In this document: positions 49,527 to 59,178 of the stretch, piece after piece
Layout of the letters: each line of letters begins with the position of its first letter
Position numbering within the stretch: position 1 is the first letter of the stretch
Source of the DNA: Gammaproteobacteria bacterium
Lineage (GTDB): Bacteria > Pseudomonadota > Gammaproteobacteria > SZUA-229
Direction of reading: 5' to 3'
DNA: 64,000 bases
NCBI GenBank assembly: GCA_026195255.1
Contig: JAPHSS010000001.1
Span: 57,043-121,042, forward strand
The notes under the pieces: model-generated
Databases searched by the model: none
Seen by the model: only the letters and a program-made list of their open reading frames with translations
Told to the model about the DNA's origin: nothing
Position numbers and translations under genes: made by a program

Positions 49527-49574
49527 TTGACATTGATAATAATTAGTATCATATTGTCACTATATGTCATGACA
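49527..49574 (+). promoter_or_regulatory. Promoter and operators of the sigma54 regulator gene
   Basis: A perfect -35 TTGACA (49527-49532), a palindrome TGATA-N8-TATCA (49534-49551; 12 of 15 match to a Fur-like 7-1-7 site), a poor -10 CATATT (49550-49555), and the perfect 10-bp palindrome TGTCATGACA (49565-49574) 14 bp before the start codon. The last shares its core with the sites at 52001-52027 and suggests autoregulation. Confidence 0.45.
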
Positions 49575-49588
49575 CGGGAGCCAGCCTG

Positions 49589-50902
49589 ATGAGCCACCAA
49601 ACACCGAAAAAACCCAGCTGTGAAAGCCTGATCAGCTTATTCCCGGACCCCTTTGTGGTCATAGACAAACAATTTCAAATTGTTGCCGCCAATCAAAAGT
49701 ATCGTGACCATTACGGGCAGGACGACATTGTCGGTAAACACTGTTACGAAGTCTCACATGGAATTGACAGACCCTGCAGCCAGAATGGTGAACATTGCCC
49801 ATTAGAAACAGTAATGCAAACCGGCAAACCCACTTCAATTATGCATATTCATTGCAACGCTGACAAAGAAGAACATGTACAACTTTCTGCTGCACCCATT
49901 TTTGATGACGAAGGCAATGTACTTTATATGGGTGAGTCAATTCAGCCCCTAAATAACGAACCTGAAAACGAAGATATTCTGCTGGGAAAATCTAAATCTG
50001 CGCTTCGTCTAATGAGTATTTTATATCGCGTAGCGCCAACTTCATCAACGGTTTTTTTACTGGGTGAGTCTGGAGTCGGCAAAGATTGTGCTGCACGATA
50101 TATTCATCAGAACTCAAGTAGAGCCAGACAAAATTTCGTCGTTGTTGATTGTGGTGTTTTAGGTGAAAGCATGATTGAAAGTGAATTATTTGGTCATGAA
50201 AAGGGCGCCTTTACCGGTGCCAATAAGCGCAAAATTGGTTTATTTGAAGCAGCCGATCAGGGAACTTTATTTATAGACGAAATTGGCGAATTGCCTCTAC
50301 ATCTTCAAACAAAATTGTTACGTGCTCTGGAAACGGGCACGATTCGTCGCATTGGTGGTAATGATTATCTGAATGTTAATGTACGCATTATTGCCGCAAC
50401 CAATCGAGATCCACAGCAAATGTTAAAAGATAAAACATTTCGTGAAGATTTATATTATCGATTAAGCGCATTTCCGGTTCATTTACCACCTCTTCGAGAA
50501 CGTAAGGGTGATATTCCTTTACTTGCAGAGTCGTTTTTAAAACAAATGGAAGAGGGCGATTCACAAATACCGCTTGCCCCAGAAGTTATTGAAAAGCTTT
50601 TAAGTTACGATTACCCCGGCAATATTCGTGAGCTTAAAAACATTATAGAACGTGCATTAATTCTTGCTGCCGGTTGCCCGATTATGTCTGACTTTCTCGT
50701 TTTCGAACATGAACAGGAAAACTTACCTATTACAGAAGCGCCTTCACCTTATAACGCAACGGCTAATCGCACTAAAACCAGCCGTTTAACTAAAGAAGAT
50801 GTATTAAATGCCTTACAAAAATGTGATGGTCACCGATCACAGGCTGCAATTATGTTAGGGGTTAGTGAACGAACTATATACAGGCATTTAAAAGATAATT
50901 AA
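49589..50902 (+). CDS. Sigma54-dependent regulator with Cys/His-rich PAS domain
   Basis: A 437-residue enhancer-binding protein. The PAS domain (about 12-125) carries C52, H57, C63, C70, H86, H88 and C89, in a pattern C-YEVSHG-PC-HCPL known from other PAS sensors and suited to metal, heme or thiol chemistry. The AAA+ domain (about 130-370) has Walker A GESGVGKD, GAFTGA for sigma54 contact, and Walker B LFIDEIGEL. A Fis-type HTH ends it. There is no receiver domain, so it senses directly. It faces the peptide-rhodanese operon across a shared terminator. Confidence 0.9.
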   Translation: MSHQTPKKPSCESLISLFPDPFVVIDKQFQIVAANQKYRDHYGQDDIVGKHCYEVSHGIDRPCSQNGEHCPLETVMQTGKPTSIMHIHCNADKEEHVQLSAAPIFDDEGNVLYMGESIQPLNNEPENEDILLGKSKSALRLMSILYRVAPTSSTVFLLGESGVGKDCAARYIHQNSSRARQNFVVVDCGVLGESMIESELFGHEKGAFTGANKRKIGLFEAADQGTLFIDEIGELPLHLQTKLLRALETGTIRRIGGNDYLNVNVRIIAATNRDPQQMLKDKTFREDLYYRLSAFPVHLPPLRERKGDIPLLAESFLKQMEEGDSQIPLAPEVIEKLLSYDYPGNIRELKNIIERALILAAGCPIMSDFLVFEHEQENLPITEAPSPYNATANRTKTSRLTKEDVLNALQKCDGHRSQAAIMLGVSERTIYRHLKDN

Positions 50903-50931
50903 AAAAGGCCCTGTATTAACAGAGCCTTTTT
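50903..50931. terminator. Bidirectional terminator between regulator and rhodanese genes
   Basis: AAAAGGC-c-CTGT (50903-50914) with ACAG-a-GCCTTTTT (50919-50931), loop ATTA. A and T runs on both flanks allow termination from either side. Confidence 0.8.
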
Positions 50932-50952
50932 AGCTATCAGGTAAAAATAGAA

Positions 50953-51606
50953 TTATTTAACGGTAGTAAATCCCAGGTTTTCCCAGTTTTGCATACCACC
51001 ACGGTACCATTTAATTTTATTTGCCGGATAACCCATTTTTAACAATGTACGAATATTGTTAGGAGACTGGCCACACCACATACCATTGCAGAACATGACT
51101 AATGTTTTTGCATTTGAATAATCAAATGAATCATCGTCATTCTCTTTCGCACCAAACTCACCGGTTACAATTTCAGCAATCGTTATTGGATCAGCACCTT
51201 TTTTAACACTTAACTTTGTCCATGGAAGGTTTTTAGCACCGGGAATAGTACCGGCCTTTACCCAGTTAGGCGTACGTGAATCAATAACAAGAATTGAGTT
51301 ATCACCGTCAGACATTTTTTTCAGATAATCTAACACCTCAATTTCACCTAAAGTTTCTACACCAGGCGCCAAACTAATCGGGTTAATGCAAAAAGGAGGG
51401 CAGTTACGCGATGTTTTTGCAAATCGTGGATCAACCGTGTTTTCATTACTCTGATTACGTTGAATCCTTACCTTTTTACCATTATGCATTACATCAACAC
51501 TGGCAATATCACTAGTGATTTTTACTTTTAAATCACCGGCAATAACGGCAGCGCTAGACATACTTAAGGTAAGAATGGCTGTAGATATCAGGGTTTTGAT
51601 TTTCAT
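50953..51606 (-). CDS. Periplasmic rhodanese-domain protein
   Basis: A 217-residue exported protein. Signal peptide 1-23 (ending AVIAG); a spacer with the cysteine motif NCPPFCINP (about 68-76); then a rhodanese domain with VIDSRTPNWVKAGTIPGAKNLPW and active-site loop CNGMWCGQS, where the first Cys should carry the persulfide. Substrate unknown. It is the second gene of an operon with a 43-residue peptide, 44 bp apart, probably driven by a sigma54 promoter at 51903-51918. Confidence 0.85.
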   Translation of the reverse strand: MKIKTLISTAILTLSMSSAAVIAGDLKVKITSDIASVDVMHNGKKVRIQRNQSNENTVDPRFAKTSRNCPPFCINPISLAPGVETLGEIEVLDYLKKMSDGDNSILVIDSRTPNWVKAGTIPGAKNLPWTKLSVKKGADPITIAEIVTGEFGAKENDDDSFDYSNAKTLVMFCNGMWCGQSPNNIRTLLKMGYPANKIKWYRGGMQNWENLGFTTVK

Positions 51607-51650
51607 AGTTTATGACTCCGTCTGGTTATTTTTATATAGTTATATTTTAG

Positions 51651-51782
51651 TTAATCGCAGTCTGGTTCCTGCTCTTCTTCTGTCTCAACAGGCGTCTCCG
51701 GCGCCTCAACAGGCTCAGCTGCCTGAATGTGAAAAGACATTAAAAACATCATGACCAGTATCGATTTTAGTAGTAGTTTCAT
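51651..51782 (-). CDS. Small secreted acidic peptide with C-terminal cysteine (peptide 1)
   Basis: A 43-residue ORF from ATG 51782, preceded by AGAG 8 bases upstream. It has a signal peptide MKLLLKSILVMMFLMSFHIQA, cut probably after IQA or QAA, and a mature part of about 22 residues, mostly Glu, Pro, Thr and Val, ending EEEQEPDCD with a single cysteine. I recognise no family. It leads the rhodanese operon. A second peptide with the same plan (57646-57801) ends EEEPECE before a DsrE-like gene. Coding is supported by that resemblance and by the context, not by homology. Confidence 0.65.
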   Translation of the reverse strand: MKLLLKSILVMMFLMSFHIQAAEPVEAPETPVETEEEQEPDCD

Positions 51783-51902
51783 TGCAGTTCTCTGGAATTA
51801 TTACGGATAACTGATTAGCGATAAGATTTAGCTGTGTCACATAAAGCATACACTACAAACAATTTCTTAACGGTAATTAGTTTATTCCCCTGTTGATGTT
51901 AC

Positions 51903-51918
51903 TGCAGGCTCTATGCCA
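51903..51918 (-). promoter_or_regulatory. Candidate sigma54 (-24/-12) promoter
   Basis: On the minus strand TGGCATAGAGCCTGCA matches the TGGCACG-N4-TTGCW consensus at the invariant GG and GC with correct spacing and at most other fixed positions. Expected start near 51893, about 110 bases before peptide 1. Confidence 0.55.
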
Positions 51919-51946
51919 ATTTGCAAGTCGGCATAAAACCTAATTA

Positions 51947-51959
51947 ATTCAACGAGTTA
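51947..51959 (+). promoter_or_regulatory. Candidate IHF site
   Basis: ATTCAACGAGTTA fits WATCARN4TTR with one mismatch. It lies between the -24/-12 element and the palindromic upstream site, where IHF usually bends sigma54 promoters. Confidence 0.35.
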
Positions 51960-52000
51960 GTTTTTAATAGAATGAAAAAACAAGCTTTTAATTTTTAAAC

Positions 52001-52027
52001 GTCATGAACAATCATGACATGTCATGA
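52001..52027. promoter_or_regulatory. Candidate upstream activating sites TCATGAC
   Basis: The perfect 16-bp palindrome TCATGACATGTCATGA (52012-52027), plus GTCATGA (52001-52007) pairing with TCATGAC (52012-52018) across 4 bp. The core TGTCATGA equals that of the palindrome at the regulator's own promoter (49565). Distance to the predicted transcription start is about 125 bp, normal for an enhancer-binding protein. Confidence 0.55.
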
Positions 52028-52179
52028 ATAAAACACACTAAGTTGACACTTATAGCTTAATTTTGCTAAATCACTTTTTATCTAAATTCAGCAGTTGAAT
52101 GCCAGACTGATGAGAAAATAGAGCCAAACTTAAAAACAAGTCATTATTTCAGCATTTTTTATTTTTTGCCTTTAAAAAA

Positions 52180-53684: not shown

Positions 53685-55619
53685 ATGCGTCTAAAAAGCA
53701 GCATTTTTCTTTGGGTTTCTCTAGCCACAATTTTGCCACTAACCGCATTAATTCTGGGTATTACGGCCTATAGTGAGCAGGTATACCTTAAAAATATTGA
53801 TAGTGATATCTATATTAATATGGAGAACATCGCCAAAGAGCTGGATTTTCGCCTTACCTATGAAAGAGAAGTGATGCTCTCTCTGGCCAATTCACCCGCT
53901 ATGAAGCAGTTTGCGCCTATTTTACAAACCGCCGCAGACGGTGACCTGCATATTAACTATTTTGAAGAAGTAGATAAATTAAATACTTTTCTTGCCGGGT
54001 TTCAACACTCGGTTCCAGGTTTAGACACGGTTCGCGTGCTGGACATTGATGGGCATGCCTTAATTAAAGTTCGATTCGGCAAACTTATTCCGGCGTTCTT
54101 CGAAGGTATTGTCGACCTCCCCCTGGCCGAAGAAGAACTGGTGGATGCGGGTTTTTTAAGCTGGATGTGGCAACTAAAAGCAAATGAACTGGTATATGGC
54201 AACCTGCCACTCAGTAAGCGTGATTATATTAGCGGCAAAGAACTATCAATTATGAACTCAATTGTGCCTGTTTCTTTTGATGACAACAAAGTTATAGGCT
54301 TTTTAACCGCTCGAGCACTGGGGGATCAGTTTGATCATATTCTTGAGTCTTTGCCTCGCACAAACAATATTAAACTAACGGTTGCAGAATATAATCCGGA
54401 CTCAGCTCAACGTCATGGCATTATTCTGTATAGTGATGAATTACAGATTAAATTCAGCCAACCACTTAACCCTGATATCAAACTGAATAAAATACTGGGA
54501 GATGAAAACTGGAAAAATTTCCAGACACAACGGTTTGGCTCTTACGTAAATAACGTTAAAAATCAACGATACTATTTTCAGGAATTTTACCCTTATAACA
54601 ACCAGCTGGTAAGCTGGATTATGGTTCTGGAATTAGACAATGATGATATCGCCGCTCCATTCCAACGTATACGCATAGGTTTGCTTGCCGTTGCTGTTCT
54701 GGTGCTGGCCATTAGCTTGATGCTCGCCAACTTAGGTGCAAAAAACATTGCTGAACCAATAACACTTTTTGCAGATTTACTTAAACGTTATGCAGATGGT
54801 GAATCTAAATTTTCAAAAAAAGCAGCCAAAGGTGCAGATGAACTAAAGCAACTTGATCAGTCTTTTCACTATCTAGTCGATAGTCTTGAACAAACTGAAA
54901 AAGAAAGAGACAGCGCGCAACAGATGATGTTACAAAATGCTAAACTTGCCAGTATCGGGCAGATGGCAGCGGGCATCGGACATGAACTTAACAACCCGTT
55001 AACTAATATATTATCTTACACAACTTTAATTGAGCGTGATCTTCCGCAGGACAACAGTGAACTAAAAGAAGACATAAAAGGTTTGAGAAATGAAGCTCAG
55101 CGCGCAGTTAGAATCATTAAAGGCATCTTAAACTTTGCTCGCCAGGTACCGCCTGAATATGTCGATTTTGATTTACATGTATGGCTTAAAGATACTATAC
55201 TTCTTGCTCATTCACATGCGCAAAAATTCAATATTACGCTTAAATTAGATGAGCACCCTGATTTATCGATTAGAGGCGATCGCAACCAGCTACAACAAGT
55301 TTTTATAAACCTGTTAATGAATGCGATTCACGCAAGTAAAGCAAATGACGAGATAATTATTAGTGCGTACGCTGAAGACTCAAAAGTTTATATTACTGTT
55401 TCCGATCAGGGAACTGGTATAGACCCTGCCAACAAAGATAAATTATTTGATCCATTTTTCACCACTAAAAACATAGGCGAGGGCAGCGGCCTTGGCTTAT
55501 CCATTAGCATTGGCATTATGCAGTATCATAACGGAAACCTGAAACTGAATAACAACGAACGTGGTGGCGTAAACGCTATTATGGAAATGCCTTTAACATT
55601 AAACACTAATCAGAATTAA
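53685..55619 (+). CDS. Membrane sensor histidine kinase
   Basis: A 644-residue kinase. TM1 about 5-27; a large periplasmic Cache-like sensor region (about 28-322); TM2 about 328-350; HAMP-like linker; coiled coil; HisKA with the phosphorylated His in GHELNNPLTNIL; HATPase with N box QVFINLLMNAIHA, G1 DQGTGID, F box DPFFTT and G2 GEGSGLGLSI. Its partner regulator starts 8 bp downstream. Signal unknown. Confidence 0.92.
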   Translation: MRLKSSIFLWVSLATILPLTALILGITAYSEQVYLKNIDSDIYINMENIAKELDFRLTYEREVMLSLANSPAMKQFAPILQTAADGDLHINYFEEVDKLNTFLAGFQHSVPGLDTVRVLDIDGHALIKVRFGKLIPAFFEGIVDLPLAEEELVDAGFLSWMWQLKANELVYGNLPLSKRDYISGKELSIMNSIVPVSFDDNKVIGFLTARALGDQFDHILESLPRTNNIKLTVAEYNPDSAQRHGIILYSDELQIKFSQPLNPDIKLNKILGDENWKNFQTQRFGSYVNNVKNQRYYFQEFYPYNNQLVSWIMVLELDNDDIAAPFQRIRIGLLAVAVLVLAISLMLANLGAKNIAEPITLFADLLKRYADGESKFSKKAAKGADELKQLDQSFHYLVDSLEQTEKERDSAQQMMLQNAKLASIGQMAAGIGHELNNPLTNILSYTTLIERDLPQDNSELKEDIKGLRNEAQRAVRIIKGILNFARQVPPEYVDFDLHVWLKDTILLAHSHAQKFNITLKLDEHPDLSIRGDRNQLQQVFINLLMNAIHASKANDEIIISAYAEDSKVYITVSDQGTGIDPANKDKLFDPFFTTKNIGEGSGLGLSISIGIMQYHNGNLKLNNNERGGVNAIMEMPLTLNTNQN

Positions 55620-55626
55620 AAAACCA

Positions 55627-56976
55627 ATGAACAAACACGTACACTTTATAGACGACGATCCAGCTGCAGGTGATTTATTCAGGCGATTTGCCCGTGATAA
55701 AGAATATGACATTCTTATTTTTAAAAATCCAATAGAAGCATTAAAAGACATTCGTGAAAATGGAAGTCATCTGGTCATCACAGATTTAAGTATGCCAGGC
55801 ATGTCGGGGCTAGAATTACTTGAATCTATTCGACAGACTGATATTGAAGTACCAGTGATTATGATTACTGGATTTTCTACTGAAGACAATGCCATAAAAG
55901 CTTTACGCCTGGGCGCTACTGATTTTATTAAAAAACCTTATGACGCTGATGAACTTTTAGAACAAGTTGATAAGGTGCTTAAAAAATCTGAAGATCGAAA
56001 AACTGAAAAACTTAATCGCCCTGGCATTAAAGACAAACAAGACCAGTTTGGTATGATCGGTCATTCAAACGCACTTTCAAAAATTTATGAAATCATAGAC
56101 AAAATTTCTGATATACGCTGTAACGTTATTATAGAAGGCGAATCAGGCACCGGTAAAGAGCTTGTTGCTCACGCACTACATAATCACTCTGTTTTCGCAG
56201 ACCAACCTTTTATTGTTATTGACTGTGGCTCATTAACAGACACTTTACTTGAAAGTGAATTATTCGGGCATGAGAAGGGAGCTTTTACCGGGGCCACACA
56301 CATCAAACAGGGGTTACTTGAAGTTGCTAGCGGCGGCACCATTTTTCTCGATGAAATATGTAACATATCCGATACTATGCAAATGAAACTAATGCGTGCT
56401 GTTCAGGCACAAACTATTACACGTGTAGGCGGAATAACACCTATAAGCATTGATGTGCGTTTCGTAGTCGCGACTAATCGTAACATTGAAGAAATGATAG
56501 CTGCTGGACAATTCAGACACGATTTATATCATCGCTTAAATGTAGTTAAAATCATTATGCCGCCATTAAGAGAAAGAGAGGCTGATCTTGAACTACTCAT
56601 AAATCATTTTATTAATGAATTTAAAGAGCGCTATCAACGAGATATTAAACATTTTGATCACGCATCAATGGAAAAGCTAAAGTCCTACAGTTGGCCGGGT
56701 AACATTCGAGAGTTGCGCAATCTGGTAGAGAGACATATCGCGCTTGCTGATGGCCCCGTATTAAGCATTGACCAGGTGTTAATTGGAAGTGATATGGGCG
56801 AGGGCATTGATGCTGATTCGCCCACACTTGAGGCACTGGAAAAACGATACATTATAAAAACACTTGATAAATGTAACGGGAATAAAGAACAGACTGCATC
56901 ACTGCTCGGTATTAATAAGTCAACTTTATGGCGAAAACTACAGAGCTGGCAAAAAAACACCGAAAACAATGATTAG
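55627..56976 (+). CDS. NtrC-family response regulator
   Basis: A 449-residue sigma54 activator: receiver domain 1-120 (FIDDDP acidic pocket, phospho-acceptor Asp in LVITDLSMPG, K in FIKKPY), AAA+ domain about 142-375 (GESGTGKE, GAFTGA, GTIFLDEIC) and Fis-type HTH (NGNKEQTASLLGINKSTLW). Note FLDEIC, with Cys where Gly or similar is usual. It pairs with the kinase upstream. Possible targets are the TrmH gene and the peptide 2-DsrE unit downstream; no -24/-12 element was found there. Confidence 0.93.
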   Translation: MNKHVHFIDDDPAAGDLFRRFARDKEYDILIFKNPIEALKDIRENGSHLVITDLSMPGMSGLELLESIRQTDIEVPVIMITGFSTEDNAIKALRLGATDFIKKPYDADELLEQVDKVLKKSEDRKTEKLNRPGIKDKQDQFGMIGHSNALSKIYEIIDKISDIRCNVIIEGESGTGKELVAHALHNHSVFADQPFIVIDCGSLTDTLLESELFGHEKGAFTGATHIKQGLLEVASGGTIFLDEICNISDTMQMKLMRAVQAQTITRVGGITPISIDVRFVVATNRNIEEMIAAGQFRHDLYHRLNVVKIIMPPLREREADLELLINHFINEFKERYQRDIKHFDHASMEKLKSYSWPGNIRELRNLVERHIALADGPVLSIDQVLIGSDMGEGIDADSPTLEALEKRYIIKTLDKCNGNKEQTASLLGINKSTLWRKLQSWQKNTENND

Positions 56977-57645: not shown

Positions 57646-57801
57646 ATGATAAATACGATACGTAACTGGTTAACTACTTTTTTATTTGTATTATTTAGCC
57701 TGAGCTGTTCGTCCACCCCTACAATTGCAATATCTGATGACAGCCCAACAATAGCCACACCAACAAAACACCAGGCAGAAGAAGAGCCTGAGTGCGAATA
57801 A
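57646..57801 (+). CDS. Small secreted acidic peptide with C-terminal cysteine (peptide 2)
   Basis: A 51-residue ORF with ribosome binding site GGAG (57634-57637) before ATG 57646. The N-terminal helix (NWLTTFLFVLFSLSC) is a signal peptide, possibly a weak lipobox LFSLSC; the mature part is Ser/Thr/Pro-rich and ends EEEPECE. The plan equals peptide 1: signal, low-complexity spacer, acidic tail with Pro-acidic-Cys-acidic. It precedes a secreted DsrE-like gene by 71 bp, as peptide 1 precedes a secreted rhodanese. No known family. Confidence 0.65.
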   Translation: MINTIRNWLTTFLFVLFSLSCSSTPTIAISDDSPTIATPTKHQAEEEPECE

Positions 57802-57872: not shown

Positions 57873-58310
57873 ATGAATCTATACTTAGTTAAAAAAATTT
57901 TCATTCTAATTACTTTCTTCTTATACCTTATCGGCACATCTTCATTAGCAACTGCTGCAGACCATAAAATGGTAATACAAATTAACTCTAAAGACAAAGT
58001 TACTCACAAAATGGGGTTAATTAATGCTGGAAACCTGAAGAGCCAGCTTGGCATTAACAATGTTGATGTTGAGGTAGTAATTTATGGACCCGGATTATCA
58101 ATGGTTAAAGCCGATAGTGTATTTAAAAATCGAATCCAAAAACTGCAATCCAGAGGTGTTGAGTTCAGCGTATGCGGCGGCACACTTAAAGCCATTGCAA
58201 AGAAAACCGGTAAAGAACCTGAATTACTTGAAGGAATGAAACGCGTAAGAACTGGCGCATTAAGAATACTTGAGTTACAGGAAGCCGGTTACGCCTACCT
58301 TAGACCATAA
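57873..58310 (+). CDS. Secreted DsrE-family protein
   Basis: A 145-residue DsrE/F-fold protein (COG1416-like) with an N-terminal signal or anchor (about 1-31, ending ATAAD). The fold pattern HKMVIQINSKDK, VEVVIYGPGLSMV and GVEFSVCGGTLKAIAKK shows the conserved cysteine used by DsrE relatives to carry sulfur. Periplasmic members accompany sulfur-oxidation genes. Start ATG 57873 is chosen over an upstream frame extension. It forms a unit with peptide 2. Confidence 0.82.
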   Translation: MNLYLVKKIFILITFFLYLIGTSSLATAADHKMVIQINSKDKVTHKMGLINAGNLKSQLGINNVDVEVVIYGPGLSMVKADSVFKNRIQKLQSRGVEFSVCGGTLKAIAKKTGKEPELLEGMKRVRTGALRILELQEAGYAYLRP

Positions 58311-58629: not shown

Positions 58630-59178
58630 CTATCTAACAAGCCCTTTTTCCACCTCATCTCTTTTGCCTTTACCTTCTAACTGCTCAATTAACGTTAAGG
58701 CAAAATCCATTGCGGTACCGGGGCCTCTTGATGTAATAACTTTGCCATCGATTTCAACCGCATTATTTGTTAATTTAGTATTATTTAATTTAGTTTCGTT
58801 TAATGCACCTGGATAGCAGGTTGCTGTTTTATTATCCAGCACACCCGCTGCAGCCAGTGCTTTGGGAGCGGCGCAGATAGCCGCAAGATAACTGTTATTT
58901 GCAGCATGATTTTTTATGATGCTTTGAACAATTTTATTATCTCGCAAATGATCGGCACCAGGTAATCCGCCTGGCAACACCACCATATCAAATTTTCTAA
59001 ACTCAAGCTTATCAATACTGGTTTGCGGTATTATTGTGATGCCTCGCGAAGCAATCACTGGCTGATCATCTAAACCAGCAGTGATTACTTCAACACCTGC
59101 GCGAGTTAATAAATCTGTTATGGTAATCGCTTCAAGTTCTTCACATCCCTGAGCTAATGGAACTAACACGCTTGTCAT
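58630..59178 (-). CDS. DJ-1/PfpI-family protein (YajL-like)
   Basis: A 182-residue DJ-1 superfamily protein. The nucleophilic-elbow cysteine is in AAICAAPKAL, with GCEELE near the N-terminus supplying the conserved Glu, and VVLPGGLPGADHL. YajL-type members respond to oxidative stress and have been proposed as chaperones or deglycases. It ends a minus-strand run behind envC and ctpA. Confidence 0.88.
   Translation of the reverse strand: MTSVLVPLAQGCEELEAITITDLLTRAGVEVITAGLDDQPVIASRGITIIPQTSIDKLEFRKFDMVVLPGGLPGADHLRDNKIVQSIIKNHAANNSYLAAICAAPKALAAAGVLDNKTATCYPGALNETKLNNTKLTNNAVEIDGKVITSRGPGTAMDFALTLIEQLEGKGKRDEVEKGLVR

Follow-up and report, generated by a model that had tools for sequence, protein, structure and literature searches.

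The 64,000-nucleotide stretch of gammaproteobacterial DNA analysed here (contig JAPHSS010000001.1; in the following the window), part of a 3.56-Mb genome, encodes a regulator that resembles the sulfane-sulfur sensor FisR of Cupriavidus and, next to it, an operon for a small cysteine-tailed peptide and a rhodanese. With a probability of roughly three in four, we consider that this FisR-like regulator senses sulfane sulfur by the cysteines C52, C63 and C70 of its PAS domain and turns on the peptide-rhodanese operon and sqr via the palindromes TGTCATGACA/TGACATGTCA about 100 bp upstream of -24/-12 promoters. The domain order, the cysteine spacing, the control sites, conservation, the co-occurrence with the regulator gene and the gene linkage are seen directly in the DNA. 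An earlier note on the same DNA had proposed that a regulator sensing a thiol, redox or sulfur signal switches on the peptide and the rhodanese, which agrees with the present analysis and seems to name the right class of signal; in addition, sqr is a likely second target, autorepression of the regulator gene is suggested and the peptide belongs to a widespread sulfurtransferase-linked family. The two sequence-based checks that the note had named, on relatives and on the whole genome, both favoured its proposal. In our judgement, little is known of how the cell envelope keeps and moves the sulfur atoms that sulfide oxidation yields. If the proposal is true, a regulon of three promoters would be defined in Gammaproteobacteria, along with its sensor and the DNA sites of that sensor, and the gene order of the peptide family, the peptide being the surprising part of the locus, points to sulfur transfer.

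The regulator and its relation to FisR

The regulator gene (49589-50902, forward strand) encodes a protein of 437 residues with the architecture of FisR, an N-terminal PAS/R domain (PAS_4), an AAA+ domain (Sigma54_activat) with the GAFTGA motif and a Fis-type helix-turn-helix (HTH_8), which bears out its initial description as a sigma54 enhancer-binding protein. The cysteines of the R domain follow the spacing C-x10-C-x6-C common to the window regulator and the homologue from C. metallidurans (C53/C64/C71); in FisR of C. pinatubonensis JMP134, the third of these residues is presumably C71. In an alignment of 37 homologues, 36 have C52, C63 and C70 and equally a histidine five residues past C52 and an HxH pair, the exception each time being L041, a protein that clusters with an unrelated NtrC-type regulator in the tree. 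Of the four PAS cysteines pointed out originally, these three thus stand, while the fourth (HIHC) is retained by few close homologues only.

The top match in a search of a plasmid collection is the protein of C. metallidurans CH34, with 42.9% identity over 95%, the gene of which is divergent from sulfur-dioxygenase-like and SQR-like genes whose family scores are below the curated cut-offs. In a tree of 40 proteins, which has long branches and an unsure deeper order, the window regulator falls into a clade of 17 rows beside 21 rows that include the C. metallidurans protein; it is grouped with this Cupriavidus FisR homologue and apart from the NtrC-type regulator, yet in a separate subclade. The genome has one rpoN match. 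Cysteine spacing, homology and gene neighbourhood all mark the regulator as FisR-like; the switch would accordingly be of a known kind with new proposed targets.

According to published reports, FisR of C. pinatubonensis forms a tetrasulfide between C53 and C64 (PMC8614764), reactive sulfur is sensed by FisR via three cysteines (PMC9774590) and the ATPase activity of FisR rises upon sulfur sensing (PMC12170894). Because FisR is a published sulfane-sulfur sensor, sulfane sulfur is taken as the signal of the window regulator. The PAS/R domain, AAA+ domain and Fis-type helix-turn-helix are shared with JMP134 FisR (PMC8614764, PMC9774590), as are three equally spaced cysteines, compared via the C. 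metallidurans homologue, a predicted sigma54 promoter, and sqr as neighbour or probable target. In contrast to Cupriavidus FisR, the window regulator, besides its 42.9% identity to that homologue and its separate subclade, has the rhodanese-peptide operon as well as sqr as proposed targets.

FisR of A. baumannii is likewise a sigma54 activator of a sulfide-detoxification operon, pdo-sqr; unlike the window regulator it has no cysteines in its regulatory domain, and its operon comprises pdo, sqr, tauE and homoserine dehydrogenase, a rhodanese or peptide being unnamed in the accessible part of the report (PMC7315123). That this protein responds to sulfide without the cysteines (PMC7315123) counts against sulfane-sulfur sensing by C52, C63 and C70 and in favour of a PAS Cys/His cluster that senses a metal, nitric oxide or general thiol oxidation, for which the conserved histidines beside the cysteines would equally suit as a metal site. 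We regard such another signal as unlikely, as both the gene neighbours, sqr and rhodanese, and what is published on FisR point to sulfane sulfur.

Control sites of the peptide-rhodanese operon

Upstream of the peptide-rhodanese operon, the -24/-12 sigma54-type promoter noticed previously is located at 51903-51918 on the reverse strand, where TGGCATAGAGCCTGCA, assigned by motif match and conservation, is one of two perfect TGGCAYN5YTGCW matches in the window. As the motif alone says little, with eight matches in the window against 10.7 expected if one mismatch is allowed, the weight rests on conservation. Some 100 bp ahead of the -24 element, three TCATGA boxes with 10-bp spacing (52002-52007, 52012-52017 and 52022-52027), which contain TGACATGTCA, are proposed as the upstream activating site of FisR; TCATGA-N4-TCATGA is unique to this region in the whole genome. 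One detail of the earlier note had to be given up. The best match to an IHF site in the window has one mismatch and is equalled by 28% of shuffles, and at 12 loci tested the IHF site was not above chance (share of shuffles as good, 6-100%). The regulator gene and the operon are arranged tail to tail, with separate promoter regions and no common one.

Conservation was assessed across the order, in 54 genomes that include that of the window. A regulator at least 55% identical is present in 11 of the 54 and adjoined by the rhodanese gene in 10 of these 11 (G032 has a fragment of it where a contig ends). An SQR gene occurs in 11 of 19 examined loci with homologues of 41-45% identity (L129-L147), and SQR, regulator and rhodanese are found together in L036, L039, L068, L082 and L101. 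The 300 bp upstream of the peptide start, or of the rhodanese start if no peptide was found, were scored for -24/-12 elements, by one fixed score, and for the palindromes TGTCATGACA and TGACATGTCA, against dinucleotide shuffles. Among 110 rhodanese loci, 90 of them unique, 15 are FisR-linked (L038 via the G032 fragment) and 75 are not, a class in which a more distant FisR would escape notice since some loci have only about 1.5 kb of flank. Scoring covered 14 of the 15 and 71 of the 75; L013, where the contig ends and the 105 bp of upstream DNA contain TGGCATAATCTCTGCA, was omitted, and the peptide start of L017 was set by hand.

A -24/-12 element precedes the operon at all 14 FisR-linked loci (0.22 expected) versus 3 of the 71 others (1.37 expected), and a palindrome is present at 9 of the 14 (0.30 expected) versus 1 of the 71 (1.37 expected); conservation of both is thus nearly confined to loci in which regulator gene and operon are linked. 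Measured from the -24 element, the nearest palindromes of these nine loci are 88-106 bp upstream, the farthest 156 bp. At L068 and L082, 133 bp separate the -24/-12 element from the start of the peptide, and the element may fall inside the upstream gene. Chance is hardly a credible source of the palindromes and -24/-12 elements: single motifs are not rare, as seen for the -24/-12 motif in the window and for the loosened palindrome TGWCATGWCA with 12 sites in the genome versus 9 for the reversed control, yet their positional conservation and the contrast with loci without FisR speak against chance.

fisR and sqr as further proposed targets

The strict palindrome TGTCATGACA occurs just twice in the genome (reversed control, once), ahead of fisR and ahead of an SQR gene of contig C47. 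At fisR it is found at 49565-49574, over the gene's own promoter as had been noted before, with a TGTCA half-site starting 10 bp upstream (49555), and is proposed as a FisR operator. All 9 distinct genomes whose regulator is 66% identical or more have a palindrome with at most one mismatch 14-34 bp before the fisR start codon; there is often also a TGTCAT-like half-site another 10 bp upstream and, ahead of this, a TTGAC[AT] -35-like box (half-site and box by eye). In five homologues of 55-59% identity the palindrome is found 49-101 bp upstream of the gene. Such a position just before the start suggests autorepression, in that FisR near 49555-49574, just past a sigma70-like promoter, would repress its own gene.

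The product of the SQR gene on C47 matches the solved SQR 3sz0 with an E-value of 7.6e-161, while the NCBIfam SQR model, a selenoprotein model, scores it lower than its curated cut-off. The palindrome precedes sqr in 11 of 15 regions tagged as such (0.48 expected) and in one untagged region of genome G052 (L225), thus in 12 of 16, which include the genomes G053 and G030, where no regulator of the FisR-like kind was detected. The -24/-12-like elements that precede sqr in relatives are weak in the window's genus, with TTGTA at -12 and scores of 11.8-12.3, versus strong elements before the rhodanese operon. In genus g11, which has a FisR of the other subclade, five sqr regions have TGGCCTGAAC-type -24/-12 boxes and none of these palindromes. 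From these sites, sqr is likely a second target of the FisR-like regulator.

Upstream of sqr, at 137929-137957 of C47 (2930-2958 of locus L115), three overlapping or adjacent palindromes form an inverted repeat, which might in addition fold into a terminator for the gene ahead of it, presumably FKBP-like. A terminator hairpin was the first reading of these palindromes and was dropped because in relatives they are conserved along with an element of -24/-12 type; they may nevertheless serve in both ways.

Extra members of the regulon were searched for with TGWCATGWCA. Of seven further sites, six were examined, which are all inside open reading frames (ORFs) and have no -24/-12 score of at least 13.5 within 220 bp (best 12.1); the seventh, at position 59173 of the window, was left out of this scoring. 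No candidate was retained among the six, a filter that is not decisive since the sqr element itself scores only 11.8.

Points against the proposed circuit

A number of observations weigh against the circuit. At the operon, genome G026 has the regulator without the rhodanese as its neighbour, 5 of the 14 FisR-linked operons have no palindrome within one mismatch, and the peptide is present in 55 of the 75 rhodanese loci without a nearby FisR. At sqr, the palindrome is absent in 4 of the 16 regions (L178, L179, L162 and L182), the palindromes of L101 overlap or abut the -24 element rather than sit upstream of it, the -24/-12 element is not the best-scoring match in L171 and L172, and its score of 11.8 in the window's genus is below the 13.5 used elsewhere and the 12.1 reached at two off-target sites. 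In C. metallidurans, the fisR-pdo intergenic region has another palindrome and a weak -24/-12 element. Furthermore, the circuit is a prediction from sequence, as are the export of peptide and rhodanese and the carrier role discussed below.

The operons without a palindrome, together with a FisR binding that is itself a prediction, would suit a different regulator that binds TGTCATGACA, with FisR acting elsewhere. We consider this highly improbable, as the site tracks fisR (9 of 14 versus 1 of 71 loci), directly precedes fisR in all 9 close relatives and is mostly found where the activator site for a -24/-12 promoter is expected. A site in common with Cupriavidus was also considered and rejected, its fisR-pdo palindrome, judged by eye, being ACTGCCAA-N-TTGGCAGT.

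The rhodanese, the peptide family and sulfur transfer

The rhodanese (50953-51606, reverse strand) has a hydrophobic N-terminus and is predicted to be exported. Its domain matches Pfam PF00581 with an E-value of 8.1e-13 and has the active-site loop CNGMWC; a CPPFC motif ahead of the domain and C173 are invariant in 28 aligned relatives. The AlphaFold model is of middling confidence (predicted local distance difference test, pLDDT, 73), and a Foldseek search gave E-values below 0.001 for five BH2092 chains only, followed by the sulfurtransferases TSTD1 and RDL2 at about 0.003. A search for further constant neighbours of the rhodanese, among ORFs of at least 90 residues, gave no family shared by more than 15 of 80 loci. 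In E. coli, the rhodanese PspE is located in the periplasm. The window protein, with its predicted export, would resemble PspE as a single-domain rhodanese outside the cytoplasm; it differs from PspE (PMC10215317) by the extra N-terminal region with the invariant CPPFC, the CNGMWC loop and the partner peptide gene.

The peptide encoded ahead of the rhodanese (51651-51782, reverse strand) has 43 residues, a hydrophobic N-terminus by which export is predicted and the end EEEQEPDCD. A second peptide with a tail of the same kind, ending EEEPECE (57646-57801, forward strand), is directly followed by a gene for a DsrE-like protein with a hydrophobic N-terminus (57873-58310, forward strand), and these two peptides are the only EP[DE]C[DE]-stop matches of the genome. 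Members of the family start, by eye, with a signal-peptide-like hydrophobic stretch, followed by a variable body of about 20-60 residues that is acidic, often of low complexity and with one conserved cysteine near the end. An ORF ending with P[DE]C plus 0-2 residues is located upstream of the rhodanese in 64 of the 84 unique loci whose upstream DNA covers 420 bp, versus 1 of 84 on the other strand and 0 of 78 downstream on either strand; 7 of the 20 loci without such an ORF have variants, for example EEPGCSE or EEDCE. Equally, codon patterns for EP[DE]C[DE]-stop gave 42 matches in the 54 genomes (27 + 15; reversed controls, 2 + 1), of which 35 end ORFs located 34-201 bp upstream of where a rhodanese match starts, 4 precede a DsrE-like match and 3 belong to no ORF, a linkage of 39 in 42. 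As the codons vary while the residues of the tail stay, selection seems to act on the protein. The peptide precedes the DsrE gene at the four most similar of the best 30 DsrE loci listed, the other 26 being without it, and the pair recurs in G051, G047 and G012. The DsrE-linked peptide was rejected as a FisR target, neither a -24/-12 element nor a palindrome being seen before 57646 by eye and in the motif listings.

No model in Pfam or NCBIfam matches the peptide, including those of SoxY/DsrC-type carriers, and a database search with it retrieved a single near-identical protein, which fits a family of such variability. In the literature, where subscription papers were mostly beyond reach, no description of the peptide or of a link between FisR and rhodanese was found, matches to PDCE being an unrelated string. 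By its gene neighbourhoods, this widespread family is tied to sulfurtransferase genes, and it is apparently uncharacterised.

In the proposed sequence of events, sulfane sulfur would link the PAS cysteines, as published for Cupriavidus FisR, by which the AAA+ ring would become active; FisR bound at the TGTCATGACA/TGACATGTCA sites would then activate the sigma54 polymerase at the peptide-rhodanese and sqr promoters, with transcription of the operon. SQR would convert sulfide to sulfane sulfur, and the rhodanese might load it onto the peptide's C-terminal cysteine, or take it from there, in the cell envelope. We put forward tentatively that sulfane sulfur made by SQR is passed in this way and that the peptide is a soluble carrier or sink in the envelope. 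Sulfur carriers such as SoxY and DsrC have a cysteine on a flexible C-terminal arm. The peptide would share this arrangement; it differs by its tiny size, the absence of a family model and the acidic P[DE]C[DE] end. Conceivably, then, a new class of exported carriers for sulfane sulfur is represented by the EP[DE]C[DE] peptides, which would be tiny, disordered and acidic and would move sulfur on their C-terminal cysteine for two or more unrelated sulfurtransferase-like proteins (rhodanese and DsrE), in the window under a FisR that also controls sqr.

About as probable as the carrier role is that, with the circuit right, the peptide is no carrier and its acidic cysteine tail binds a metal or docks to, inhibits or chaperones the rhodanese. 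Its acidic, often low-complexity nature, the single conserved near-terminal cysteine and the position of its gene just before the enzyme gene would fit such a role. The occurrence of the same tail before DsrE, another sulfurtransferase-like family, at those four closest loci favours a role in sulfur transfer over one with a single enzyme, although docking to both rhodanese and DsrE is compatible with the distribution of the tail.

Additional observations

Near the fisR locus, a histidine kinase (53685-55619) is followed by an NtrC-type sigma54 response regulator (55627-56976), which is distantly related to FisR. Genome G051 of the window's genus has a second FisR homologue of 45% identity (C7:160824-162116) with TGTCATGACA about 520 bp upstream and, roughly 4 kb away, another rhodanese copy (C7:166374-167057); the ORF between them we take to be ATP sulfurylase-like. 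In the window's own genome (G000), two more rhodaneses of the same family with 46-47% identity are present (C29:125172-125792 and C6:31469-32098); neither contig has an EP[DE]C[DE]-stop match, and the copy on C6 is preceded by an ORF of 123 residues with a hydrophobic N-terminus.

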